Source of the DNA: an uncultured Hyphomicrobiales bacterium | GTDB lineage: Bacteria; Pseudomonadota; Alphaproteobacteria; Rhizobiales; Beijerinckiaceae | Assembly (NCBI GenBank): GCA_903889985.1 | Contig: CAISZN010000187.1 | Span: forward strand, 1 to 43,424 | Direction: 5' to 3' | Length of the DNA: 43,424 nucleotides | In this document: positions 4,701-43,063 of the stretch, piece after piece | Numbering within the stretch: position 1 is the first letter of the stretch | How the letters are laid out: each line of letters starts with the position of its first letter | The notes under the pieces: model-generated | Told to the model about the DNA's origin: nothing | The model's input: only the letters and a program-made list of their open reading frames with translations | The model's database searches: none | Translations under genes and position numbers: made by a program

Positions 4701-7700
4701 GTGTCCATCAAAGCCAATGCCGACCTGAAGCGGGCGCTTGACCGGCTCGCCAAGCGCGAACCCCTGACGCTCTCCAATGTGCCTGACGGCTTCGATGCCG
4801 TGATCGTGGCCGACATGGCGCGTGGTCTTGCCCGCGCCGCCGAGGATCGCTCGGTCGCCCTTGTTCATGTGGCGCGCGATGGGCAACGCTCCCGCGCCTT
4901 CCAGGAGGCGCTGGCCTTCGTGGCCCCCGAGATCGAAATTCTGGATTTCCCCTCGTGGGATTGCCAGCCCTATGACCGTGTCTCGCCCAATGGTGCGATC
5001 ATCTCGCGGCGCATGACGGTACTGTCACGACTGGCGCGGGCGCGCTCGGCCGAGGACCGGCCGCGCGTCCTGTGCGTCTCGGTCAATGGCCTCATCCAGC
5101 GTGTGCCCCCACGCAGCTGGATGGAGACGGAAAGCTTTTCGGCGGCACCCGGCAACATGGTGTCGATGGATGCGCTGGCACGCTGGCTTGAGACCAACGG
5201 CTTCCTGCGCTCTTCCACCGTGCGCGACACGGGCGAATACGCGCTCCGCGGCGGCATCCTCGATCTCTTTGCGCCGGGCATGCCCCTCCCGATCCGCCTC
5301 GACTTCTTCGGCGATACGCTGGAGTCGATCCGCGCCTTCGATCCGGAAACCCAGCGCACCACCGGCCAGCTGCGCAGCCTCGACCTCGTGCCCATGAGCG
5401 AAGTGACGCTGACGTCGGAGACCATGCGCCGCTTCCGGCAGGCCTATGTGACGGAATTTGGCGCCCAGACCCGTGGCGATGGCCTCTATGAGGCGATCAG
5501 CGAGGGCCGCCGCTATCCGGGCATGGAGCACTGGCTGCCGCTCTTCTATGGCGAACTCGACACGCTGTTCGATTATGTGGGCGATGCACCCCTCGTGCTT
5601 GATACGCTGGCTGAAGATGCGGCTGGTGAGCGACTCTCGCAGATCAAGGACTATTACGACCAGCGCAAGGCGCAGTATGACTGCGACACGGCGCATGCTT
5701 CCTACAAGCCGCTGAAGGCCGATGCGCTTTATCTCTCGCCAACCCAATGGCGCGAGACGCTCGACGCAGCACCGCTCGCGCGCCTGTCTCCATTTGCCAA
5801 GCCCGATGATCGCAGCGTGGTCGATTGTGGCGGCCGGCAGGGGCGCAACTTCGCGCCCGAACGCGCGGACGAGACGCTCAATGTTTTTGAGGCGGCTATC
5901 GCCCATATCCGCACCCTGCAGAAGAATGGCCAGCGCGTCATTGTTGCGGGCTGGTCGGATGGGTCGCGCGAGCGCGTCTCCCACGTGCTGGTTGAGCATG
6001 GGCTCAAGAAGCTCGAGATCGTGAACTCGCTGTCGCAGGCCATGGGGCTTGCGCCTGATGTGACGGCCCTTGCCGTCATCGGCCTTGAGAGTGGCTTCGA
6101 GGCGCCCGCCTTTGCCGTCATCGGCGAGCAGGACATCCTGGGCGACCGGCTGATCCGCCAGCGCCGCAAGAGCAAGCGCGCGCAGGACTTCCTGTCGGAA
6201 GTGGCCTCCCTCAGTGCCGGCGATCTCGTCGTGCATGTGGACCACGGCATTGGCCGCTTTGTCGGCCTGCAGACCATCACGGCGGCAGGCGTCCCGCACG
6301 ATTGTCTCGAAATCCATTATGCCGGCGGCGACAAGCTGTTCCTGCCCGTCGAAAATCTCGAACTGCTGACACGCTACGGGTCGGAAGACACGGAAGCGAC
6401 CCTCGACAGGCTGGGCGGCGCGGGCTGGCAGAACCGTCGCTCGAAGATGAAGAAGCGCATCCGCGACATGGCCCATGCGCTGATCAAGGTTGCTGCTGCA
6501 CGCCATACGCGCGAGGCGGCTCGCTTGCCGCTTCCGGACCATCTCTACGAAGAGTTCTGTGCCCGCTTTCCCTATGATGAGACGGAAGACCAGCAGGGCG
6601 CCATCGATGCGGCGCTGGATGATCTGGCGTCAGGCCGCCCCATGGATCGACTGGTGTGCGGCGACGTGGGCTTCGGCAAGACGGAAGTGGCCCTGCGCGC
6701 GGCCTTTGCAGCCGCCATCAATGGCAAGCAGGTGGCCGTCGTGGTGCCGACCACTCTTCTCGCCCGCCAGCATTACCGCACCTTCAGCGCGCGCTTTGCC
6801 GGCCTGCCGATCAAGGTCGCTCAGATGTCGCGCATGGTCTCGGCTGCGGATCTCAAGGCCGCGCGCGAGGGGATAGCCTCCGGCGATATCGACATCGTCG
6901 TCGGCACCCATGCGGTGCTCGGCAAGACGGTCTCCTTCCGCGATCTGGCCCTCGTCATCATCGACGAGGAGCAGCACTTTGGCGTCGCCCACAAGGAGAA
7001 GCTGAAGGAGCTGCGTGCGGAAGTGCATGTGCTGACCCTTTCGGCCACGCCGATTCCGCGCACCATGCAGCTCGCCATGACGGGCGTGCGCGAACTGTCG
7101 ATCATCGCTTCCGCGCCTGTCGATCGACTGGCCGTGCGCACCTTCGTCACCCAGTTCGACGAACTCATCATTCGCGAGGCCCTGCTGCGCGAGCGCTATC
7201 GAGGCGGCCAGAGCTTCTATGTCTGCCCGCGCATCGAGGACCTGGAAGAGGCTGCCGCCTTCCTGCGCACCAGCGTGCCGGAAGCGAAGTTCGTCATTGC
7301 CCATGGGCAGATGTCTGCCACCGAACTCGAAGAGAAGATGTCGGCCTTCTATGATGGCAAATATGACATCCTCGTCGCCACCGCGATCGTGGAATCCGGT
7401 CTCGATATTCCCACCGCCAATACGCTGATCGTGCATCGCGCCGACATGTTCGGCCTCGCCCAGCTCTATCAGCTGCGAGGCCGCGTTGGTCGTGCCAAGA
7501 CGCGCGCCTACGCACTCTTCACCATACCGGCCAACCGCACCATCACGCCGCAGGCCGAGAAGCGCCTGAAGGTGCTGCAGTCCCTCGATACGCTTGGGGC
7601 CGGCTTCCAGCTCGCCAGCCACGATCTCGATATTCGTGGCTCCGGCAACCTGCTCGGCGAGGAACAATCGGGCCACATCAAGGAAGTCGGCTACGAGCTC

Positions 7701-19330: not shown

Positions 19331-20317
19331 TCACTTGCGCAGGAAGCGCTCGTCATAGAGCTGGTCGGCGGGCGGCACTTTTTCGAGCGTGCCGATCTCG
19401 ACCAGAGAACGGCGGATGACTTCGACGGCCGCGGGCTCGAAGGTCCCCTTGTCGCGCAGCATCCTCGTGATCTCATCCTCATAGGCCTGCCGGGCTGCAG
19501 CCTCCCCGATGCCCAGCGTCTTCGCGCCGACGCGGATCGTGACCTCCGGATTGGCGCGGGCAAAAGCCACCGTGCGGAACCATCCGTCGACGAATTTCTG
19601 CACGAGCTCGGGCTTTTCCTGAATGAGCTTGTTGCGGGCGAAAAGCACGTTCGAATGAAAATCCTTCACCGTGTCGCCAAGGCTCGCAAAGACTTTGGAG
19701 GCCCCGTTGATCTGCGCTTCAAAAGCAGTCGCGGCCCCCATCACCACGCCGTCGATCTCGCCCGCCTTCAGGGCAGCCAGCGACGTGCGCGAGGCCCCCG
19801 ACGGGAATGTCTTGATGCCGTCCGGGCCCCAGCCCTTCTGGCGGGAGATCTCGTGGACCATCCAGTCCGTCAGCGAGCCCGATGAGGTGACGCCGATGGT
19901 GCGGCCTTTCAGGTCATCGAGGCTCTTGATGGTGGTATCCGTGCGCACACTCAGCACGAGATTGAAGGGCGCTCCACTCACGGCCGCGATGGCGGTCGCC
20001 GGCACGCCCTTGACCGCATAGGCGAGGCCAGGGCCTGAGCCGAAGCCGAGGTCGATGGAATCCGAAGTCAGGGCCTGAATGGTGGGCGCTTCGCCGCCAA
20101 ACATGAGGCCTTCAACCTCGAGGCCCAGGTCTTTCCAGATGCCAGCCTCGGTGCCGAGCTCGACGAGGGTCAGGATCATCGGCGGGCCGGATTTGCCCAC
20201 GCGCAGCTTGTCGAGCGCCAATGCGGGAAAGGACAGGCAACAGGCAGCCCCAGCGATGAGCGCAAGTCTCGGAAGGTCCCGGATGAGTGACGAAACCGCT
20301 TCACCGCCGAGCTTCAT
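19331..20317 (-). CDS. NMT1/SsuA-type ABC transporter substrate-binding protein
   Basis: This is a 328-residue protein from ATG 20317 with an excellent Shine-Dalgarno (GGGAGGAACC); the upstream in-frame ATG at 20380 is not supported. The signal peptide runs to about residue 35 (LALIAGAACCLSFPALA). The mature part follows the SsuA/ThiY/NMT1 pattern: KLRVGKSGPPMILTLVELGTEAGIWKDLGLEVE, LTSDSIDLGFGSG, SLDDLKGRTIGVTSSGSLTD and LKAGEIDGVVMG. Relatives bind sulfonates, nitrate, thiamine precursors or aromatic compounds. No permease or ATPase is adjacent. It diverges from the cupin-dehydrogenase-dioxygenase cluster, suggesting it may supply that pathway's substrate, but this is inference. Confidence 0.88.
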   Translation of the reverse strand: MKLGGEAVSSLIRDLPRLALIAGAACCLSFPALALDKLRVGKSGPPMILTLVELGTEAGIWKDLGLEVEGLMFGGEAPTIQALTSDSIDLGFGSGPGLAYAVKGVPATAIAAVSGAPFNLVLSVRTDTTIKSLDDLKGRTIGVTSSGSLTDWMVHEISRQKGWGPDGIKTFPSGASRTSLAALKAGEIDGVVMGAATAFEAQINGASKVFASLGDTVKDFHSNVLFARNKLIQEKPELVQKFVDGWFRTVAFARANPEVTIRVGAKTLGIGEAAARQAYEDEITRMLRDKGTFEPAAVEVIRRSLVEIGTLEKVPPADQLYDERFLRK

Positions 20318-28325: not shown

Positions 28326-30746
28326 ATGACAACCCAGAAGCGTGAGCTCACCCCCGGTCGCAGCGACACCTACCCGGTCCTGCCACTGCGTGACATTGTC
28401 GTTTTTCCGCACATGATCGTTCCGCTTTTCGTGGGCCGCGAAAAGTCGATCCGCGCCCTCGAAGAGGTGATGAAGGGCGACAAGTACATCTTGCTCGCCA
28501 CGCAGATGAACGCCTCGGACGATGATCCGGCGACGGATTCGATTTTCAAGATCGGGACGCTGGCCACCGTTCTGCAGCTGCTCAAGCTGCCCGACGGCAC
28601 CGTGAAGGTGCTGGTCGAAGGCACAGCCCGCGCTGAAATCGCGACCTACTCGCGCACCGATGAATATTACGAGGCCTCTGCCTCCATCATCGCTGACGAT
28701 ACGGGTGAGAAGGTCGAGGTCGAGGCGCTGGCGCGTTCCGTCGTCAGCGAATTCGAAGGCTATGTGAAGCTCAACAAGAAGGTGTCGCCGGAAGTCGTCG
28801 CGGCCGTTGGCCAGATCGAGGACTATTCCAAGCTCGCCGATACGGTGGCTTCGCATCTCGCCATCAAAATCTCCGACAAGCAGGCGATCCTGGAAATGCC
28901 AGCCGTCGCCAAGCGTCTGGAGAAGTGCCTTGCACTGATGGAAAGCGAGATCTCGGTCCTTCAGGTCGAGAAGCGCATCCGCACGCGTGTGAAGCGCCAG
29001 ATGGAGAAGACCCAGCGCGAGTACTATTTGAATGAGCAGATGAAGGCCATTCAGAAGGAACTCGGCGATGAGGATGGCAAGGACGACCTCGCCGAAATCG
29101 AAGAGCGCATCAAGAACACCAAGCTGACCAAGGAAGCACGCGACAAGTCGCTTGCGGAGCTGAAGAAGCTGCGCCAGATGTCGCCCATGTCCGCGGAAGC
29201 AACCGTGGTGCGCAACTATCTCGACTGGATCCTGTCGATCCCGTGGGGCAAGCGCAGCAAGGTCAAGAAGGACATCAATGCGGCCTCTGACATCCTGAAC
29301 TTCGACCACTTCGGTCTGGACAAGGTCAAGGAACGCATCCTCGAATATCTTGCCGTGCAGCAGCGTGCCAACAAGCTGACCGGTCCGATCCTGTGCCTCG
29401 TCGGCCCTCCGGGTGTCGGCAAGACCTCGCTCGGCAAGTCGATTGCCAAGGCCACGGGCCGCGAGTTCGTGCGCATGTCGCTTGGCGGCGTGCGCGACGA
29501 GGCGGAGATCCGCGGACATCGTCGGACCTACATCGGTTCGATGCCCGGCAAGATCGTCCAGTCGATGCGCAAGACGAAGACAACGAATCCGCTCTTCCTG
29601 CTCGATGAGATCGACAAGATGGGCATGGATTTCCGCGGCGATCCGTCTTCCGCACTTCTGGAAGTGCTCGACCCCGAGCAGAACCAGACGTTCAACGACC
29701 ATTACCTGGAGGTCGACTACGACCTGTCGAACGTGATGTTCGTGACCACGGCCAACACGCTGAACATCCCTGCGCCCCTCATGGACCGCATGGAGATCAT
29801 CCGGATCGCTGGCTACACGGAAGATGAGAAGGCTGAGATCGCGCGCAAGCATCTGATCCCGGCTGCCGTCCACAAGCATGGCCTGTCACCGACCGAATGG
29901 TCGATCGATGACGCAGCCCTGCTGACGCTCATCCGCCGCTACACCCGCGAAGCGGGCGTGCGTAATCTTGAGCGGGAGCTCTCCAACCTTGCCCGTAAGA
30001 CGGTGAAGGAGATTCTCACGACCAAGACGAAGCAGGTGGCCATCACGGCTGACAACCTGTCCGACTATCTCGGCGTACCGAAGTATCGCTATGGCGAGGC
30101 CGAGACGGAAGATCAGGTGGGCGCGGTGACCGGTCTTGCCTGGACCGAGGTCGGTGGCGAGCTGCTGACGATCGAAGGCGTCATGATGCCCGGCAAGGGC
30201 CGCATGACGGTGACGGGCAACCTGAAGGATGTGATGAAGGAATCGATCTCGGCGGCGGCGTCCTATGTGCGCTCGCGGTCGGTCGACTTCGGCATCGAGC
30301 CGCCGCTTTTCGAGCGTCGCGACATCCACGTGCACGTGCCGGAAGGTGCCACGCCGAAGGATGGTCCCTCCGCCGGTATCGCCATGGCAACTGCCATCGT
30401 CTCGGTGCTGACGGGCATCGCGGTGAAGCGCGACATTGCCATGACGGGCGAGGTCACCCTGCGCGGTCGCGTGCTGCCCATCGGCGGCCTGAAGGAAAAG
30501 CTGCTCGCGGCGCTCCGTGGCGGCCTCAAGAAGGTGTTGATTCCTCAGGATAATGCCAAGGATCTGGCGGATATCCCGGAGAACGTGAAGAACGCGCTCG
30601 AGATCGTCCCGGTCTCCCGCATGGAGGAAGTGCTGCAGCACGCGCTCGTGCGTCAGCCCATCCCCATCGTGTGGGAGGAAGAGCTGCCGGTAAAGACTGC
30701 GGCACGTCCCACAGACGAAGATCAGACGGGCGTCGTCGCACACTGA
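28326..30746 (+). CDS. lon: ATP-dependent protease Lon
   Basis: This 806-residue protein has the LonA plan: an N-terminal substrate-binding LON domain (about 15-210, [22 protein letters not shown]), a coiled-coil helical region with [18 protein letters not shown], an AAA+ module with Walker [10 protein letters not shown] near 360 and LLDEIDKMG, and the C-terminal protease domain with the catalytic S682 ([10 protein letters not shown]) and K725 ([14 protein letters not shown]). It degrades misfolded and regulatory proteins in the cytoplasm. A sigma-32-type promoter upstream and a strong terminator downstream make it a single-gene unit. Confidence 0.98.
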
Positions 30747-30989: not shown

Positions 30990-31265
30990 ATGAACAAGCA
31001 GGAACTCGTCGATCACATCGCATCGGCGACAGAGTCCTCCAAGGCCGTTGCAGCCGCTGCACTCGAAGCAGCGCTGGAAGGCATCACCGAAGCTCTCAAG
31101 AAGGGCGATGAAGTTCGCCTCGTGGGCTTTGGCACCTTCTCCGTGAAGCAGCGCGCCGAGACCAAGGGCCGCAACCCCTCCACCGGCGCCGAGATTACCA
31201 TCCCGGCCTCGATGAATGCCCGCTTCAAGACCGGCGCGAGCCTCAAGGCCGTGCTGAACAAGTAA
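30990..31265 (+). CDS. hupB: DNA-binding protein HU
   Basis: This 91-residue protein begins at ATG 30990 behind AGGATG; the longer frame from 30858 adds non-family residues. It has the complete HU fold: MNKQELVDHIA, GDEVRLVGFGTFSVKQRAETKGRNPSTG with the DNA-intercalating beta-arm and its NP pair, and ITIPASMNARFKTGASLKAVLN. HU is a nucleoid-associated dimer that bends DNA. The gene lies between lon and tRNA-Val, the usual rhizobial order. The symbol hupB is by position and similarity only. Confidence 0.95.
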   Translation: MNKQELVDHIASATESSKAVAAAALEAALEGITEALKKGDEVRLVGFGTFSVKQRAETKGRNPSTGAEITIPASMNARFKTGASLKAVLNK

Positions 31266-31421: not shown

Positions 31422-31497
31422 GGGCGGTTAGCTCAGTTGGTAGAGCATCTCGATTACACCGAGAGGGTCGGCGGTTCGAGCCCGTCACCGCCCACCA
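31422..31497 (+). tRNA. tRNA-Val (anticodon UAC)
   Basis: This is a 76-base cloverleaf with acceptor GGGCGGT / ACCGCCC, encoded CCA at 31495-31497, anticodon stem TCTCG/CGAGA with loop ATTACAC giving TAC, and the T-loop TTCGAGC. Its 3' end is repeated 1.2 kb downstream. Confidence 0.96.
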
Positions 31498-31500
31498 TTC
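31485..31500 (+). repeat. att-like direct repeat, tRNA-Val copy
   Basis: TCACCGCCCACCATTC spans the last 13 bases of tRNA-Val, including CCA, and 3 bases beyond. It matches 32666-32681 at 15 of 16 positions, with 12 identical bases in a row. Placement at a tRNA 3' end is the standard signature of site-specific integration. Confidence 0.6.
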
Positions 31501-31659
31501 CATAACTGTTCAGAAAACCCTTTCGCTGCGCGGGCAGGCCTCATCTGAGGGATTGCCTGCAGCGGTGCTCGTGTGGTCCGATCTGGAATGGCTCACAGGG
31601 ACTTTCCCGCTCTCGCGGTGTTCGCTCCGGTACCTGTTGGCCTCACTTAGAGGTGCGCG

Positions 31660-32640
31660 ATGAATATTCCCCGGCGACTTTTCTTGAAGCATGCGGGTGC
31701 CGCTGCAGCTCTAACGACAGTCCATCGGGCTTGGGCGGATAATTACCCTTCGAGACCAATAAAGCTTTTGGTCTCCTCCGCGCCGGGCGGTGTGCATGAC
31801 GTGATAGGACGCCTCTGGGCTGATAGACTTCACGATGCTCTCGGAACGATCGTGGTCGAAAACCAGGGCACTGCCGGGGGCGCAATTCTTCGCGCCATTC
31901 GATCTCCGCCAGATGGATACACGCTATTTCTGGGTTCAAGCGGCACGCATGTCCTTGAGCCACTCATCAGGGCACATATTGACTACGATCCCCTGAACAG
32001 CTTCGAGGCTGTCTCCATTTTTTCAAAGGCCACCACCTCGGTCGCGGTCAGCAGCGCGTCTCCTTTTCATTCGTTGAAGGAGCTGATCGGGTTTGCCCGC
32101 GCCAATCCGGGGAAATTGTCATACGCCTATGCTGGCGTTGGTGCGATTAGCAATGTCGCGGGGGAAATGTTCAAAGGCCTTGCGGGCGGGCTGGTCATTG
32201 AACCTGTTGCCTATCGCGGGATGGGTCCCGCCCAATTCGATGTCATGAGTAATCAGGTCCCTTTGTTCTTTCCGAATGTCACGGGACAAGTTGTAGGTCT
32301 TCACGAGAGTGGCAGCATCCGCATCCTCAGCGTAAACTCGCAAACTCGTCTTGAGATGCTTCCCTCAATTCCCACGTCCATCGAAGAAGGCGTCAACGAT
32401 ATGATCGCCGAGACTTTTTTTGGCATCTTCGCGCCGAAGGGTCTTGCGATTGATGTTGCTCAAAAAATCAATAAGGCAACAGATGATGCCTTTCGAGATG
32501 CGGTGTATCGCGAGAAGCTGAGAAAAGACGGCTTCCAGGTGTTAAGCGGTATCGCGGCCGATAGCACCAAGGCGTTTATCATAGAGGAAACGCGGCGCTG
32601 GGCTCCAATCATAAAAGCGGCCGGCATCACTGCAGATTAA
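31660..32640 (+). CDS. Bug/TctC-family tripartite tricarboxylate transporter binding protein (in low-GC islet)
   Basis: This is a 326-residue protein starting behind AGAGGT. It has a twin-arginine signal (MNIPRRLFLKHAGAAAALTT, cleaved near RAWADN). The mature protein follows the Bug pattern: YPSRPIKLLVSSAPGGVHDVIGRLWADRL, VVENQGTAGGAILRAIRSPPDGYTLFLGSS, SLKELIGFARANPGKLSYAYAGVG and PVAYRGMGPAQFDVMSNQV. These periplasmic proteins capture carboxylates or aromatic acids, normally for a TctAB permease, which is absent here. Base composition is visibly more AT-rich than flanking genes (for example GATAATTACCC, AATAAAGCTTTT), and it is the only gene between the two att-like repeats, so it is probably horizontally acquired. 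Confidence 0.9.
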   Translation: MNIPRRLFLKHAGAAAALTTVHRAWADNYPSRPIKLLVSSAPGGVHDVIGRLWADRLHDALGTIVVENQGTAGGAILRAIRSPPDGYTLFLGSSGTHVLEPLIRAHIDYDPLNSFEAVSIFSKATTSVAVSSASPFHSLKELIGFARANPGKLSYAYAGVGAISNVAGEMFKGLAGGLVIEPVAYRGMGPAQFDVMSNQVPLFFPNVTGQVVGLHESGSIRILSVNSQTRLEMLPSIPTSIEEGVNDMIAETFFGIFAPKGLAIDVAQKINKATDDAFRDAVYREKLRKDGFQVLSGIAADSTKAFIIEETRRWAPIIKAAGITAD

Positions 32641-32665
32641 ATAGATGCCGTCCGAATTCGACACA

Positions 32666-32681
32666 TCATCGCCCACCATTC
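32666..32681 (+). repeat. att-like direct repeat, distal copy
   Basis: TCATCGCCCACCATTC repeats the tRNA-Val 3' end with one mismatch. It overlaps the last 2 bases of the VOC gene stop and closes the low-GC segment. No integrase gene lies between the copies. Confidence 0.6.
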
Positions 32682-33114
32682 AATCTGTCGCAGACCCTTC
32701 CCATGCATGTCCCGTGATGTCGAACACGACGCCATCAGGGCCGCGATACTTATATTCTGCGTGCGAGTTCGGCGGGATGTCGTAAGGCACGCGCTCAAGC
32801 CCCATGGCTTCGAGCTTGTCCATCCAGGACTGCACGTCGTCCACCACCACGCCGATGTGATGCAGGCCGATATAGTCGATGCCCTTCTTCAGCTGGTCGT
32901 CGTTGAACTTCAGGATGGCGATGTTGATGGCGCCATCGGTCAGGAAAACCCCAGAGGGGCGTGGCGCGAAATCAGGCCGCGCAGGATCGAGGCCGAAACG
33001 GCGTAATTCCTTGAAGCCGAAGGTCGACTTGTAGAACTCGGCTGCCTTGCCCGGATGATCGCTGGCCATGGCGATGTGGCGGATGCGCATGGGTTCACGC
33101 GGGCTCTCTGACAT
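32680..33114 (-). CDS. VOC (glyoxalase/bleomycin-resistance fold) family protein
   Basis: This is a 144-residue single-VOC protein. The two beta-alpha-beta-beta-beta halves start at MRIRHIAMASDHPGKAAEFYKSTFGF and LHHIGVVVDDVQSWMDKLEAMG, and HAEYKYRGPDGVVFDITGHAW supplies the usual metal-site glutamate region. The family includes glyoxalases, extradiol dioxygenases and methylmalonyl-CoA epimerases; the substrate cannot be read. The 3' end is next to the att-like repeat, with 2 bases of the stop inside it. It is probably a cytoplasmic enzyme of an accessory pathway. Confidence 0.87.
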   Translation of the reverse strand: MSESPREPMRIRHIAMASDHPGKAAEFYKSTFGFKELRRFGLDPARPDFAPRPSGVFLTDGAINIAILKFNDDQLKKGIDYIGLHHIGVVVDDVQSWMDKLEAMGLERVPYDIPPNSHAEYKYRGPDGVVFDITGHAWEGSATD

Positions 33115-39842: not shown

Positions 39843-39919
<77 letters not shown>

Positions 39920-40347
39920 TTTCATTTTGAGATGTCTGGAAAGATTTGGTGTCGCAGATTTAGCGTTGCCATCTGTTGCAGACATCGATCGGTCGCCTTC
40001 CCTATTCAGTAAGAAACCTCCCTTCATCTGCGGCTACGCCGATGAAAATCGAGGCGGCCTGCGCTCCGGCATCATCATCATCAGGCCGCCAAGGATCATT
40101 GTGGGACCTCAGCTGCAACATCACGGGCAGCACATCAAAGTGTCTTCACTGCAGCGTCCATAACCCTTTCGAATAAATCGCCTCGTTTGTTTGGTTGGCC
40201 CGAGCTGATGACCATGTCTAGTCTGTGCAGACAGCAGCTTGTGCAATTACTTTCGATTTGATACGAAGAGTCCTGTTGCATTACTCTGCGTAAATTTATA
40301 ATTCGATTTTCTTATTTATTAACTAGTCTCTATATTAGGGTTTAACC
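39920..40347. other. AT-rich stretch between tRNA-Asp and the glycosyltransferases
   Basis: These 428 bases are much more AT-rich than the window average, particularly 40180-40347. Short open frames here have no recognisable family or good ribosome binding site. No copy of the tRNA-Asp 3' end and no integrase remnant was found. The 3' part probably carries the promoter of the downstream glycosyltransferase pair. Confidence 0.5.
40276..40302 (+). promoter_or_regulatory. Possible promoter of the glycosyltransferase pair
   Basis: TTGCAT (40276-40281) and TATAAT (40297-40302) are 15 bases apart, a little short of the optimum. The TATAAT is exact and lies 45 bases before the first glycosyltransferase start. 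In AT-rich DNA this can occur by chance. Confidence 0.35.
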
Positions 40348-41691
40348 ATGTATTGGTTGGACATATCGACGGCGGCGCAGTGGCGTGGCTGGCATGTCGG
40401 CATCACTCGCGTAGAATTCGAACTCATGGATCACGCACTTGGCTGCGAGGATGTGAGTTTCTGTGCATTTGATTTGCGTAACGGGATTTTTCGCGAGGTA
40501 TCCAGAGAGCAGGTTCGAGCGATTTCATCGCGAAAATTGCTCATCAATCTCAGTCGGGGGGGATCAGATGAAGAGAGACGAATGTCCCGCATTCGCCATC
40601 CATTCCGCTCGTCTCCGCTGCTGTGGTATCTGTCGCAGCGGATCCGGCGCAGGCACAGAAACCTGCGGAAAATTGAAATCATCAATCTGCATCGACAGAA
40701 ATTTGATCATGATCAACAGCAGATTCCGATCATCCAATCAACTCAGTTGCGCCCTGTAAAGCTGGGTGAAACGGATGTCGTGATTTCCACTGGTCTTGAC
40801 TGGGACTTCAAGGACATTCGGAAAATCATTGATCTCAAGCGAAGGGATCGATTCAGATATGTAGCTATGGTTTATGACCTGGTTGCCCTGAACAGTCCTC
40901 AATTTGTGGTGCCTGGGTCTGCCGAGAGACTGACTGATTATTTTGGCGAACTGTTTTGGCTGGCTGATCATATCATCTGCAATTCACGAGCAGTCGAGAA
41001 GGACGTCAGGGAGCATATTTCGACGCTAGCTTCGGCCAACCCGAATGTCAGCGTTGTACCGCTTGGGGTTTCGATATCCCTTGGCCAATTCGAAAAATTA
41101 CCGCGAGAGCTGAGGGGCAATAAATATATTGCTGCAATCGGTACATTGGAGCCGAGAAAGAATATTCGAACACTCTATGTTGCTTGGGAAGTCGCGATAC
41201 GTGACGGATTGATTGACCCAAGCCTCCATAAGCTTGTCCTGGTTGGCCGTAAAGGTTGGTCAGTCGATGACCTGGTGCGGGACATAGGTTTGAATCCAAA
41301 TACGGCGGGGAGTGTTCTGATCACTGGTTCTGTCGATGAATCGACGCTCATGTCGATCTATGAACATGCTTCAGCGATTGTCGTCCCATCTTTTCATGAG
41401 GGCTTCGGGTTGCCGCTTGCCGAAGCCATGGCATTCGGAAAAGCCTCTCTTTCAAGTGGTCAGGGCGCGCTTGCCGAGGTCGGAGCGGGGCTCGTGACGG
41501 AAATTGATCCTTACGATGTCATGGCATGGGCACGAGCGATATCTCGTGCTTTGACTGACGACACTTGGCGTAGCCAGCAGGAGGTCTTGCTGGCGGGACG
41601 TCGAAGCAAATCGTGGGGGCAGGTCGCATCAGATTTTTTCAATATCATTTTTCAGGAGTTTCCCGAATGTCGGATGGTATCCTCGCACTAG
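40348..41691 (+). CDS. Family 4-type glycosyltransferase (GT-B fold)
   Basis: This is a 447-residue protein behind AGGG at 40337-40340. The C-terminal GT-B domain contains GTLEPRKNI (typical GT4), and HEGFGLPLAEAMAFGKASLSS supplies the EX7E-type donor-site motif. The N-terminal part (MYWLDISTAAQWRGWHVGITRVEFEL) resembles initiating segments of mannosyl- or rhamnosyl-type transferases acting on surface polysaccharide. Codon use is more AT-rich than in core genes. The next glycosyltransferase overlaps its end by 25 bases. Donor and acceptor are unknown. Confidence 0.88.
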   Translation: MYWLDISTAAQWRGWHVGITRVEFELMDHALGCEDVSFCAFDLRNGIFREVSREQVRAISSRKLLINLSRGGSDEERRMSRIRHPFRSSPLLWYLSQRIRRRHRNLRKIEIINLHRQKFDHDQQQIPIIQSTQLRPVKLGETDVVISTGLDWDFKDIRKIIDLKRRDRFRYVAMVYDLVALNSPQFVVPGSAERLTDYFGELFWLADHIICNSRAVEKDVREHISTLASANPNVSVVPLGVSISLGQFEKLPRELRGNKYIAAIGTLEPRKNIRTLYVAWEVAIRDGLIDPSLHKLVLVGRKGWSVDDLVRDIGLNPNTAGSVLITGSVDESTLMSIYEHASAIVVPSFHEGFGLPLAEAMAFGKASLSSGQGALAEVGAGLVTEIDPYDVMAWARAISRALTDDTWRSQQEVLLAGRRSKSWGQVASDFFNIIFQEFPECRMVSSH

Positions 41692-42947
41692 GTACTTATC
41701 CCATCGTGAACGCCATCCATGGCGGACAAAGGCGGGTACGGGCTATTCAGAAATATTATGAGTCCATTGGCATCAGATACGATTATGCTTGCATCTACGA
41801 GCCCAAGGCATACCTGCCATCTGACCTTGGCACTCATGACATACCCTGTCCAAAATCACATTTCATGCGTCAAGTTCCTCAAATAGGCGATCTGAGGACT
41901 GCCTATGAATGCCAAAAAAGTCTGGAACTTCTGAGTTGGCTTGGAAATTTGATACGGGAATTCAGGCCTCGTGCCATACAGCTTGAGCAGCCCTTTCTGG
42001 GCCCGCTGGTCCTTCGGTATCTGCAAGAAACAGGGTCCTCACACCCAAAAATAATTTATTCCAGCCACAATATTGAGTCCGCACTCAAACGTGACCTGCT
42101 TGGCAAGGTCGAAGTCGAGCAAGCAGACAGACAGGCCGTTCATGATTCGATTATGAGCATCGAAACAGAACTATGCAGGCATTCCAGCCTGATCATTTCC
42201 TGCACGGATCATGACGCGTCCTGGTTGCGTCGCCATTCTGGCTGCCCAGCGATCGTTATTCCCAACGGTGTAGATCGACCAGTGCAATCAGAACCTTGGA
42301 TGGCAGCGCAAATCAGGGACATGTTTGGCGGCGAGCCGTTTTTGCTTTGCGTTGGAAGCTCGCATATTCCCAACATACAAGGCTTCATCGATTTGTTGCT
42401 GACAGACGGCGCCTATTTTCTTCCATCGCGTCATGCCCTGGCTCTCTGCGGAGGAATGGCGACCGAGGTTGTGCAATCGGGGGCCTATGGACGATACAGC
42501 GCTGGTCATTCGCGCAGGATCGTTCCTTTCCCTAAGTTAAATGATGCCATGCTGGATGCCCTGAAAGCATCTTGTCATGGTATTCTGCTTCCTATCCTAA
42601 CCGGAGGCGGCAGCAATTTGAAAACTGCGGAAGCTATAGCTGCCGGGTGCCATATCGTTGGAACACCTAAAAGCTTTCGAGGATTTTCAGAGTATGAAGG
42701 CATTTCTGGGCTGACACTCGCAGATGATCCTTGTTCATTCAGAGCAGCTGCAGCAAAAGCGCTTTCCGCCCCGGCTCTCCAAATCGATCGATCGGAAAAG
42801 GACTTTCGCGAAAGGGTTTACTGGGACGCTGCGCTTGCAAGAAGTGATCTGAAGTACAATGTCGAGGGCTTACTCGGAGCGACCCACCATCAACCCGCAC
42901 CGAGGCGCGAATGGGCTCAGTTGAGGCGCGCCGCCCGTTCAGCGTGA
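41667..42947 (+). CDS. Glycosyltransferase, second of an overlapping pair
   Basis: This is a 426-residue protein from ATG 41667, behind TTCAGGAG, inside the end of the preceding gene; the in-frame start at 41613 is rejected. The N-terminal NAIHGGQRRVRAIQKYY is the GT-B glycine-rich acceptor-domain start. The C-terminal half has VIPNGVD, FLLCVGSSHIPNIQGF and LTGGGSNLKTAEAIAAGCHIVG, a variant GT4 donor loop in which the first glutamate of EX7E is glycine. It probably works with the upstream transferase on a surface glycan (inference). Composition is AT-richer than the window norm. Confidence 0.85.
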   Translation: MSDGILALGTYPIVNAIHGGQRRVRAIQKYYESIGIRYDYACIYEPKAYLPSDLGTHDIPCPKSHFMRQVPQIGDLRTAYECQKSLELLSWLGNLIREFRPRAIQLEQPFLGPLVLRYLQETGSSHPKIIYSSHNIESALKRDLLGKVEVEQADRQAVHDSIMSIETELCRHSSLIISCTDHDASWLRRHSGCPAIVIPNGVDRPVQSEPWMAAQIRDMFGGEPFLLCVGSSHIPNIQGFIDLLLTDGAYFLPSRHALALCGGMATEVVQSGAYGRYSAGHSRRIVPFPKLNDAMLDALKASCHGILLPILTGGGSNLKTAEAIAAGCHIVGTPKSFRGFSEYEGISGLTLADDPCSFRAAAAKALSAPALQIDRSEKDFRERVYWDAALARSDLKYNVEGLLGATHHQPAPRREWAQLRRAARSA

Positions 42948-43063
42948 GGTTCGTTGCACAAAAGGACGATCGTTTGGTCTGAGTAGCGCAGTCACATTTC
43001 CTTTGATGCATTCATTGAGTCGCATCCACGCAAATCAGGATCTGACTGAACTTTTTGCTCAGC

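Follow-up and report, generated by a model that had tools for sequence, protein, structure and literature searches.

Cis-mobilizable elements (CIMEs), as defined in the passages of PMC5704250 that treat them, are remnants that retain attL and attR and carry no integration or transfer genes. The fGI-2 islands of Methylophilaceae, in the part of PMC10872708 devoted to them, span 330 bp to 42 kb and 1 to 63 CDS and lie next to repeated copies of the final 20 bases of tRNA-Lys, and the fGI1 of Actinomarinales is presented in the corresponding part of PMC7771536 as tRNA-targeted gene cassettes. For the ssrA islands of Dehalococcoides, the relevant sections of PMC3146451 give 20-bp direct repeats of the RNA gene end as borders, with an integration module in many islands, not all.

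Here we analyse a 1.18-kb insert between a tRNA-Val(TAC) gene and a VOC gene in a 43,424-nt contig of an uncultured Hyphomicrobiales bacterium (the window). With moderate confidence, we regard it as the residual, integrase-less islet of an element that targeted tRNA-Val(TAC).

Layout and composition of the tRNA-Val islet

The insert begins at the 3' end of the tRNA-Val(TAC) gene and carries at its far border a direct repeat of the tRNA end. The features of the locus are as follows.

28326..30746, + strand: lon, the conserved upstream flank of tRNA-Val(TAC) in the genus (lon match upstream at 33 of 43 loci, one of them just 46 aa)
30990..31265, + strand: HU gene, chromosomal flank (PF00216, E 8.6e-31)
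31422..31497, + strand: tRNA-Val(TAC), the target gene, intact (ARAGORN; congener sequences)
31485..31500, + strand: proximal att-like copy (attL side), the last 13 bases of tRNA-Val plus TTC (read directly)
31501..31659, + strand: leader from the tRNA to the cargo gene, GC 0.60, no recognised gene
31660..32640, + strand: cargo gene for a Bug/TctC-family periplasmic binding protein with a Tat-like N-terminus, 326 aa, GC 0.54, GC3 0.57 (PF03401, E 1.1e-45; composition)
32666..32681, + strand: distal att-like copy (attR side), matching the proximal copy at 15 of 16 bases and, at all 16, the tRNA-Val(TAC) end plus TTC as found in congener G029 and in viral contigs
32680..33114, - strand: VOC (glyoxalase superfamily) gene in the chromosomal flank, with the distal copy reaching into its stop codon (PF00903, E 7.9e-12)

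The proximal copy reads TCACCGCCCACCATTC, the final 13 bases of the tRNA followed by TTC, and the distal copy reads TCATCGCCCACCATTC; direct reading bore out the earlier note's claim that 15 of their 16 bases agree. Twelve of the matching bases are consecutive, and extension to 31503/32684 gives 17 of 19 matches at a start-to-start distance of 1181. The VOC gene is convergent to the cargo gene, and the distal copy runs straight into its stop codon (TGA, minus strand, 32680-32682), which lies one base past the distal CCA, so that two bases of the stop codon are overlapped; the earlier note had said that the copy touches this stop. We rejected the idea that the distal copy continues into the T-arm and anticodon arm, since the DNA just upstream of it is not significantly like the remaining tRNA 3' half: against the two tRNA types, 62% and 18% of window stretches reach as high a score. 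The source assembly comprises 695 contigs and 4.78 Mb (completeness 100, contamination 8.55), and seven of the eight named records related to the VOC protein are MAGs of Beijerinckiaceae, Rhizobiales or Hyphomicrobiales, the eighth and more distant one being a Binataceae MAG.

A chance origin of the repeat is unlikely. Using a Markov model of order 3 fitted to the window, we observed one event with at most one mismatch to the 16-mer in 14,997,750 simulated positions, a rough, single-event basis for expecting a 15/16 match about 8e-5 times per 1.2 kb and 8e-4 times in all downstream DNA. Across 691,526 positions of genus DNA, counting both strands, the closest non-tRNA places have three mismatches (n=2). 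At 43 other tRNA-Val(TAC) loci from 41 genomes, comprising 222 kb of downstream DNA with many loci ending early at contig ends, we found no copy of the locus's own tRNA end within three mismatches of 18; four mismatches occur at one place each in three loci (L104, L114 and L116), and the best other downstream runs, 12 bases in L118 and 11 bases in L129 (G005, +4467), both have five mismatches in 18. The 12-mer core occurs five times in the 4.78-Mb assembly, in the two islet copies and at three further places (window 20077-20088 and contigs C431 and C432). The C431 and C432 matches were rejected as att sites: both fall within a sequence that the two contig ends have in common and that looks, by eye, like an ABC permease, and no tRNA was found in these stretches.

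The interval has a GC content of 0.547, compared with 0.620 upstream and 0.643 downstream, and 4 of the 775 overlapping stretches of this size that lie before position 39900 have a GC no higher than that, counting those in the interval's own neighbourhood. The cargo gene, at 54% GC, is indeed AT-richer, as claimed; its GC3 of 0.571 corresponds to a z of -2.0 against 25 mechanically called ORFs, a rough value because some of these are shadow ORFs, and one of the 25 has a GC3 of 0.572. A second tRNA-adjacent low-GC insert lies elsewhere in the window, at 39843-43063, where about 3 kb at 48-53% GC, carrying two glycosyltransferase genes, separates tRNA-Asp from def; we found no copy of the tRNA-Asp end downstream in the window at up to 7 mismatches of 22.

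The cargo protein belongs to the Bug family, as had been proposed, with PF03401 (TctC) matching residues 51-322 of 326 at 156.8 bits (cut-off 27; E 1.1e-45). Its N-terminus contains PRRLFLK, read by eye, which we take to be a predicted Tat-like motif. Other Bug proteins act in solute capture for uptake or sensing, and by analogy the cargo protein presumably serves the same purpose. The genus is rich in this family: TctC matches at E<=1e-20 occur in all 51 genomes searched, at least 12 per genome in 41 of them and at least 43 per genome in 17. Several homologues lie in stretches of 53-59% GC in G016, G036, G028, G019 and G013 (stretch values only), with no integrase there by profile.

The earlier note had called the gene foreign-looking, and its low composition agrees; foreignness to the genus is not supported, as the nearest relative (56%, GC 0.67) is in congener G015, beside trmL-like and cytochrome-bc1-like genes (by eye); the 8 kb fetched for it hold no tRNA. 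The next relatives, at 43%, are in G016 and G036, and with the gene's own genome set aside none of 385 class genomes reaches E 1e-85 and none of 398 phylum genomes reaches E 1e-75. A plasmid search returned 759 matching records, all below 60% and at 35-39% among the matches listed, and no viral contig with a relative of the cargo protein was confirmed. The closest kin thus being within the genus and the gene itself aberrant in composition alone, "foreign" here refers to composition and insertion, not to a donor.

We infer that an element would have integrated by site-specific recombination of the tyrosine-recombinase type at the 3' end of tRNA-Val(TAC), rebuilding the tRNA proximally and leaving a second copy of its end distally at the VOC stop codon. 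Later, the integrase would have disappeared together with most of the element's remaining DNA, and one intact cargo gene, for a putative secreted solute-binding protein, would have stayed behind.

The tRNA-Val to VOC gap in congeners

Among 51 genomes of the genus, matches at E<=5.1e-16 yielded the 43 tRNA-Val(TAC) loci in 41 other genomes, the window's own locus left out. The VOC gene lies downstream of the tRNA at five of them (G005, G016, G009, G068 and G032). In G005, 17 bp separate tRNA-Val from VOC with no insert, and a single 123-kb contig gives the order lon, HU, tRNA-Val, 17 bp, VOC, TctC and, further on, aroE. The suggestion that tRNA-Val and VOC were once adjacent is thus matched by a relative in which they are, and the distal copy lying at a junction seen as tRNA/VOC in that relative makes chance still less likely. 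An empty site of the kind sought by the earlier note is thus present in the genus, at one of the five linked loci and in another species than the window's; the data searched include no strain of the window's own species with such a site, and the one in G005 could also reflect secondary loss.

The four other linked congeners hold between 1.4 and 9.5 kb in the gap, making it a hotspot. The insert is 1.38 kb in G016 (aminotransferase class V), 2.2 kb in G009 (TctC and an alpha/beta-hydrolase), 5.1 kb in G068 (genes similar to those of G009, by eye) and 9.5 kb in G032, and none of these ends in a tRNA copy. In a Lon tree, G005 falls inside a supported clade with G016, G032, G033 and G036, indicating that the gap content changed more than once; the window's own placement is weakly supported. 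Across the genus, tRNA-Val(TAC) comes in clearly different sequence types that do not neatly follow the Lon tree: G028 has a window-like type, yet its sister group consists of five genomes that have the other type, and the window's own anticodon loop has an A where the other listed copies have a T.

This turnover bears on a rather unlikely account in which an older element left the distal tRNA end as a scar and the TctC gene came in later, through a separate event of homologous or illegitimate recombination. The repeat-free inserts of the four congeners, with their host-like GC of 0.636-0.659, are what such arrivals would resemble. The G033 bin likewise holds two versions of the locus (L126, on G033:C268, and L128, on C125) that are 95.8% identical to about 7 bases past tRNA-Val(TAC), differ over 0.97 versus 0.45 kb, and are 93% identical afterwards; DNA has been swapped at the tRNA end, no tRNA-end copy is seen in either, and the longer version has a 275-aa ORF at 51% GC with no Pfam match. 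G015 further shows a degenerate tRNA-end-like tail after VOC, followed by other DNA to the contig end, as an old scar might look, although scores as high are reached by 1.8% of window control stretches for one tRNA type and by 10.3% for the other. (G015 is among six genomes that yielded no tRNA-Val(TAC) locus; at E<=1e-200, lon was found in one of the six, G069, and not in G015.) The scar account, however, needs two events where one suffices, the gene and the repeat together accounting for the whole 1.18 kb.

Integrases and tRNA-Val(TAC) ends on viral contigs

The remnant reading proposes a lost integrase. In agreement with the earlier note, the roughly 1.2 kb between the copies holds one gene. 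It is intact and codes for 326 aa, and neither profile nor sequence searches of the window found an integrase, which is why we describe it as a remnant or cassette and not as an autonomous element. Nor did a profile built from 17 genus integrases match any of 3361 ORFs from the window and the 43 loci, which extend as far as about 3 kb on the upstream side and 7 kb on the downstream side of the tRNA (13 kb in G032); as a control, a reduced profile recovered the genome's own C486 recombinase (7.6e-10) as well as five genus integrases that had been left out of it (6e-126 to 6.8e-56). The full profile misses the integrase of viral contig L208, and a second search used the L208, L210 and own C271 proteins as queries. 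Against the same ORFs it returned one weak match (E 0.0086), taken as noise, in L099 at 2.5-2.7 kb upstream of the tRNA within the lon stretch, and its control recovered six genus relatives. In whole genus genomes, neither integrase type gives a match on any contig carrying a tRNA-Val(TAC) locus. With none at the 43 loci or in the window, and the genus matches on other contigs, no helper is seen at the site in the genus.

Elsewhere in the genus, integrases are associated with other tRNA genes. The P0001 type gives 12 matches in 10 of 51 genomes, flanked by tRNA-Val(CAC/GAC) in six (in six genomes), tRNA-Thr in one, tRNA-Arg in one and no tRNA in the fetched flank in four. These integrases were rejected as the cause of the islet: none of those with a tRNA in the flank is beside a TAC gene, they are absent from the window's own genome at E<=1e-40, and the 4.5-kb integrase-bearing unit at tRNA-Val in G066 is bounded by exact 69-bp copies, far longer than 16. 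At that G066 locus (L185, G066:C133), two P0001-type integrases stand in tandem at tRNA-Val(CAC), at 2056 and 6541, with the 69-bp exact repeat 4.5 kb apart. The L210 type has eight genus matches, flanking tRNA-Thr (three), tRNA-Ser (two), tRNA-Phe (one) or no tRNA (two). The window's own genome has four PF00589 matches at E<=1e-8, the three listed lying on contigs C231, C533 and C486. The last of these carries a cluster (L148, G000:C486 10000-22408) of a phage-integrase-family recombinase, a Thoeris ThsB-like TIR protein, a patatin/SLOG protein and an MvaI/BcnI-type restriction enzyme, perhaps a defence island.

The distal copy is itself a natural tRNA end: TCATCGCCCACCATTC is the exact tRNA-Val(TAC) end plus TTC of congener G029, so the single mismatch need not be decay. 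An origin in the genome's own other tRNA-Val genes was rejected, as the GAC and CAC types end in TCGCGCCCACCA. Two pattern scans of viral contigs returned 11 different contigs, counts that are descriptive because the patterns allowed both forms and some contigs look alike. Seven have the distal 16-mer in tRNA-Val(TAC), six of them in a whole tRNA; L228 has the CACC form, and in L205, L207 and L209 the 16-mer lies inside one common non-tRNA sequence. The seventh of the tRNA-bearing contigs, L225 (IMG/VR 3300029787_000095), has the tRNA 3' part only, at 700-770, possibly a phage attachment site.

In L208 and L210, integrases begin about 0.1 kb behind tRNA-Val(TAC). The two are homologous (E 6e-132 to each other). 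PF00589 recognises the L210 protein (1.6e-06), behind which come portal and capsid genes; the L208 protein has no Pfam match of its own. From this placement, phages do integrate at tRNA-Val(TAC) 3' ends bearing the distal 16-mer. The repeat was not found a second time on either contig. Had an attP supplied the left half of the distal and the right half of the proximal copy, its core would read TCATCGCCCACCATTCCAT, a 19-mer that occurs in L208 and L210 (IMG/VR) and contains the whole distal 16-mer; the agreement is weak, since L206, with a recombinase-like ORF at tRNA-Asp, has the 19-mer too. L206 was rejected as a tRNA-Val prophage despite its att-pattern match, as that ORF (5069-6319, by eye) adjoins tRNA-Asp. 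A search of viral contigs with the L210 integrase returned itself alone, an insensitive search that missed the L208 homolog, and phage records gave two weak matches.

Such integrases could also have acted from elsewhere. It is improbable that the islet is a mobile one-gene cassette of 1.2 kb (attL, gene, attR) moved in trans by phage or other integrases recognising tRNA-Val(TAC), rather than a decayed larger element. The structure is clean, comprising the tRNA, one intact gene, a tRNA-end copy and nothing else, and small tRNA-side islands or cassettes are described in the fGI sections of PMC10872708 (Methylophilaceae) and PMC7771536 (Actinomarinales). We found no second copy at another site or in another host, however, and no sign of excision. 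The only L210-like integrase of the genome (G000:C271) is 33% identical to that of L210 and has a much closer match in G024 (E 1e-199), in an integrase adjoining tRNA-Ser, so tRNA-Val is probably not its site; no tRNA was found in the search of its 4.2-kb contig. If true, trans-movement would be one route by which the genus gains new binding proteins.

Weighing the readings and comparison with known systems

The earlier note's reading of the insert as an islet or remnant stands in part: the adjacency in G005, the length-variable hotspot, the low composition, a repeat beyond chance that matches a natural tRNA end, and the lack of an integrase in the searches all agree with it, and any excision or movement of the islet, and the loss of an integrase rather than its supply in trans, are putative. 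Against a remnant in particular count the absence of an integrase at the site, the repeat-free inserts of relatives, the nearest kin in the same genus and the 69-bp length of the G066 repeat. That the repeat is a coincidence and the gene an ordinary intergenic gain is very improbable, for although the 12-mer core recurs in coding DNA of the same genome, and 2 of the 43 other loci show chance runs of 11-12 bases from the tRNA end, the expected number of 15/16 matches is about 8e-5 per 1.2 kb, and this copy lies where a congener has the tRNA itself and has as its variant base a natural tRNA-Val allele.

The remnant reading makes the islet a testable route by which a TctC-rich alphaproteobacterial genus may add single solute-binding proteins, and it leaves the knowledge of tRNA-site integration unchanged. 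The nearest counterparts on the phage side are the prophage-like contigs L208 and L210, which have the same tRNA-Val(TAC) species and the 19-mer containing the distal 16-mer; unlike the islet, they carry an integrase and, in L210, portal and capsid genes, and show no second repeat copy. The ssrA islands of Dehalococcoides, as far as the sections cited above describe them (PMC3146451), resemble it in the repeat of an RNA gene end at the border and in an integration module that is not always there, and differ in their serine integrase module, tmRNA target and kilobases of cargo. With the additive flexible genomic islands fGI-2 and fGI1, in the accounts of PMC10872708 and PMC7771536, the islet shares the tRNA-side position, direct repeats of part of the tRNA and small size, whereas it is one insert in one genome and not a tandem series of copies. 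Compared with CIMEs as defined in PMC5704250, it is likewise inserted in a gene end, has an att-like copy on either side and shows no integrase, the integration and transfer genes being absent and the repeats present; unlike them, it has one gene and no sign of a parent ICE or IME, and both its standing as a CIME and its capacity for excision are putative. Islands bounded by tRNA or tmRNA ends, some without an integration module and some down to one gene, are already known from the accounts in these papers, so the novelty of the islet is low; it is a very small case of the kind. As an instance of a gene gained at a tRNA hotspot it is clean: a congener has the empty site, and the one base by which the att-like copy differs occurs in a natural tRNA allele.
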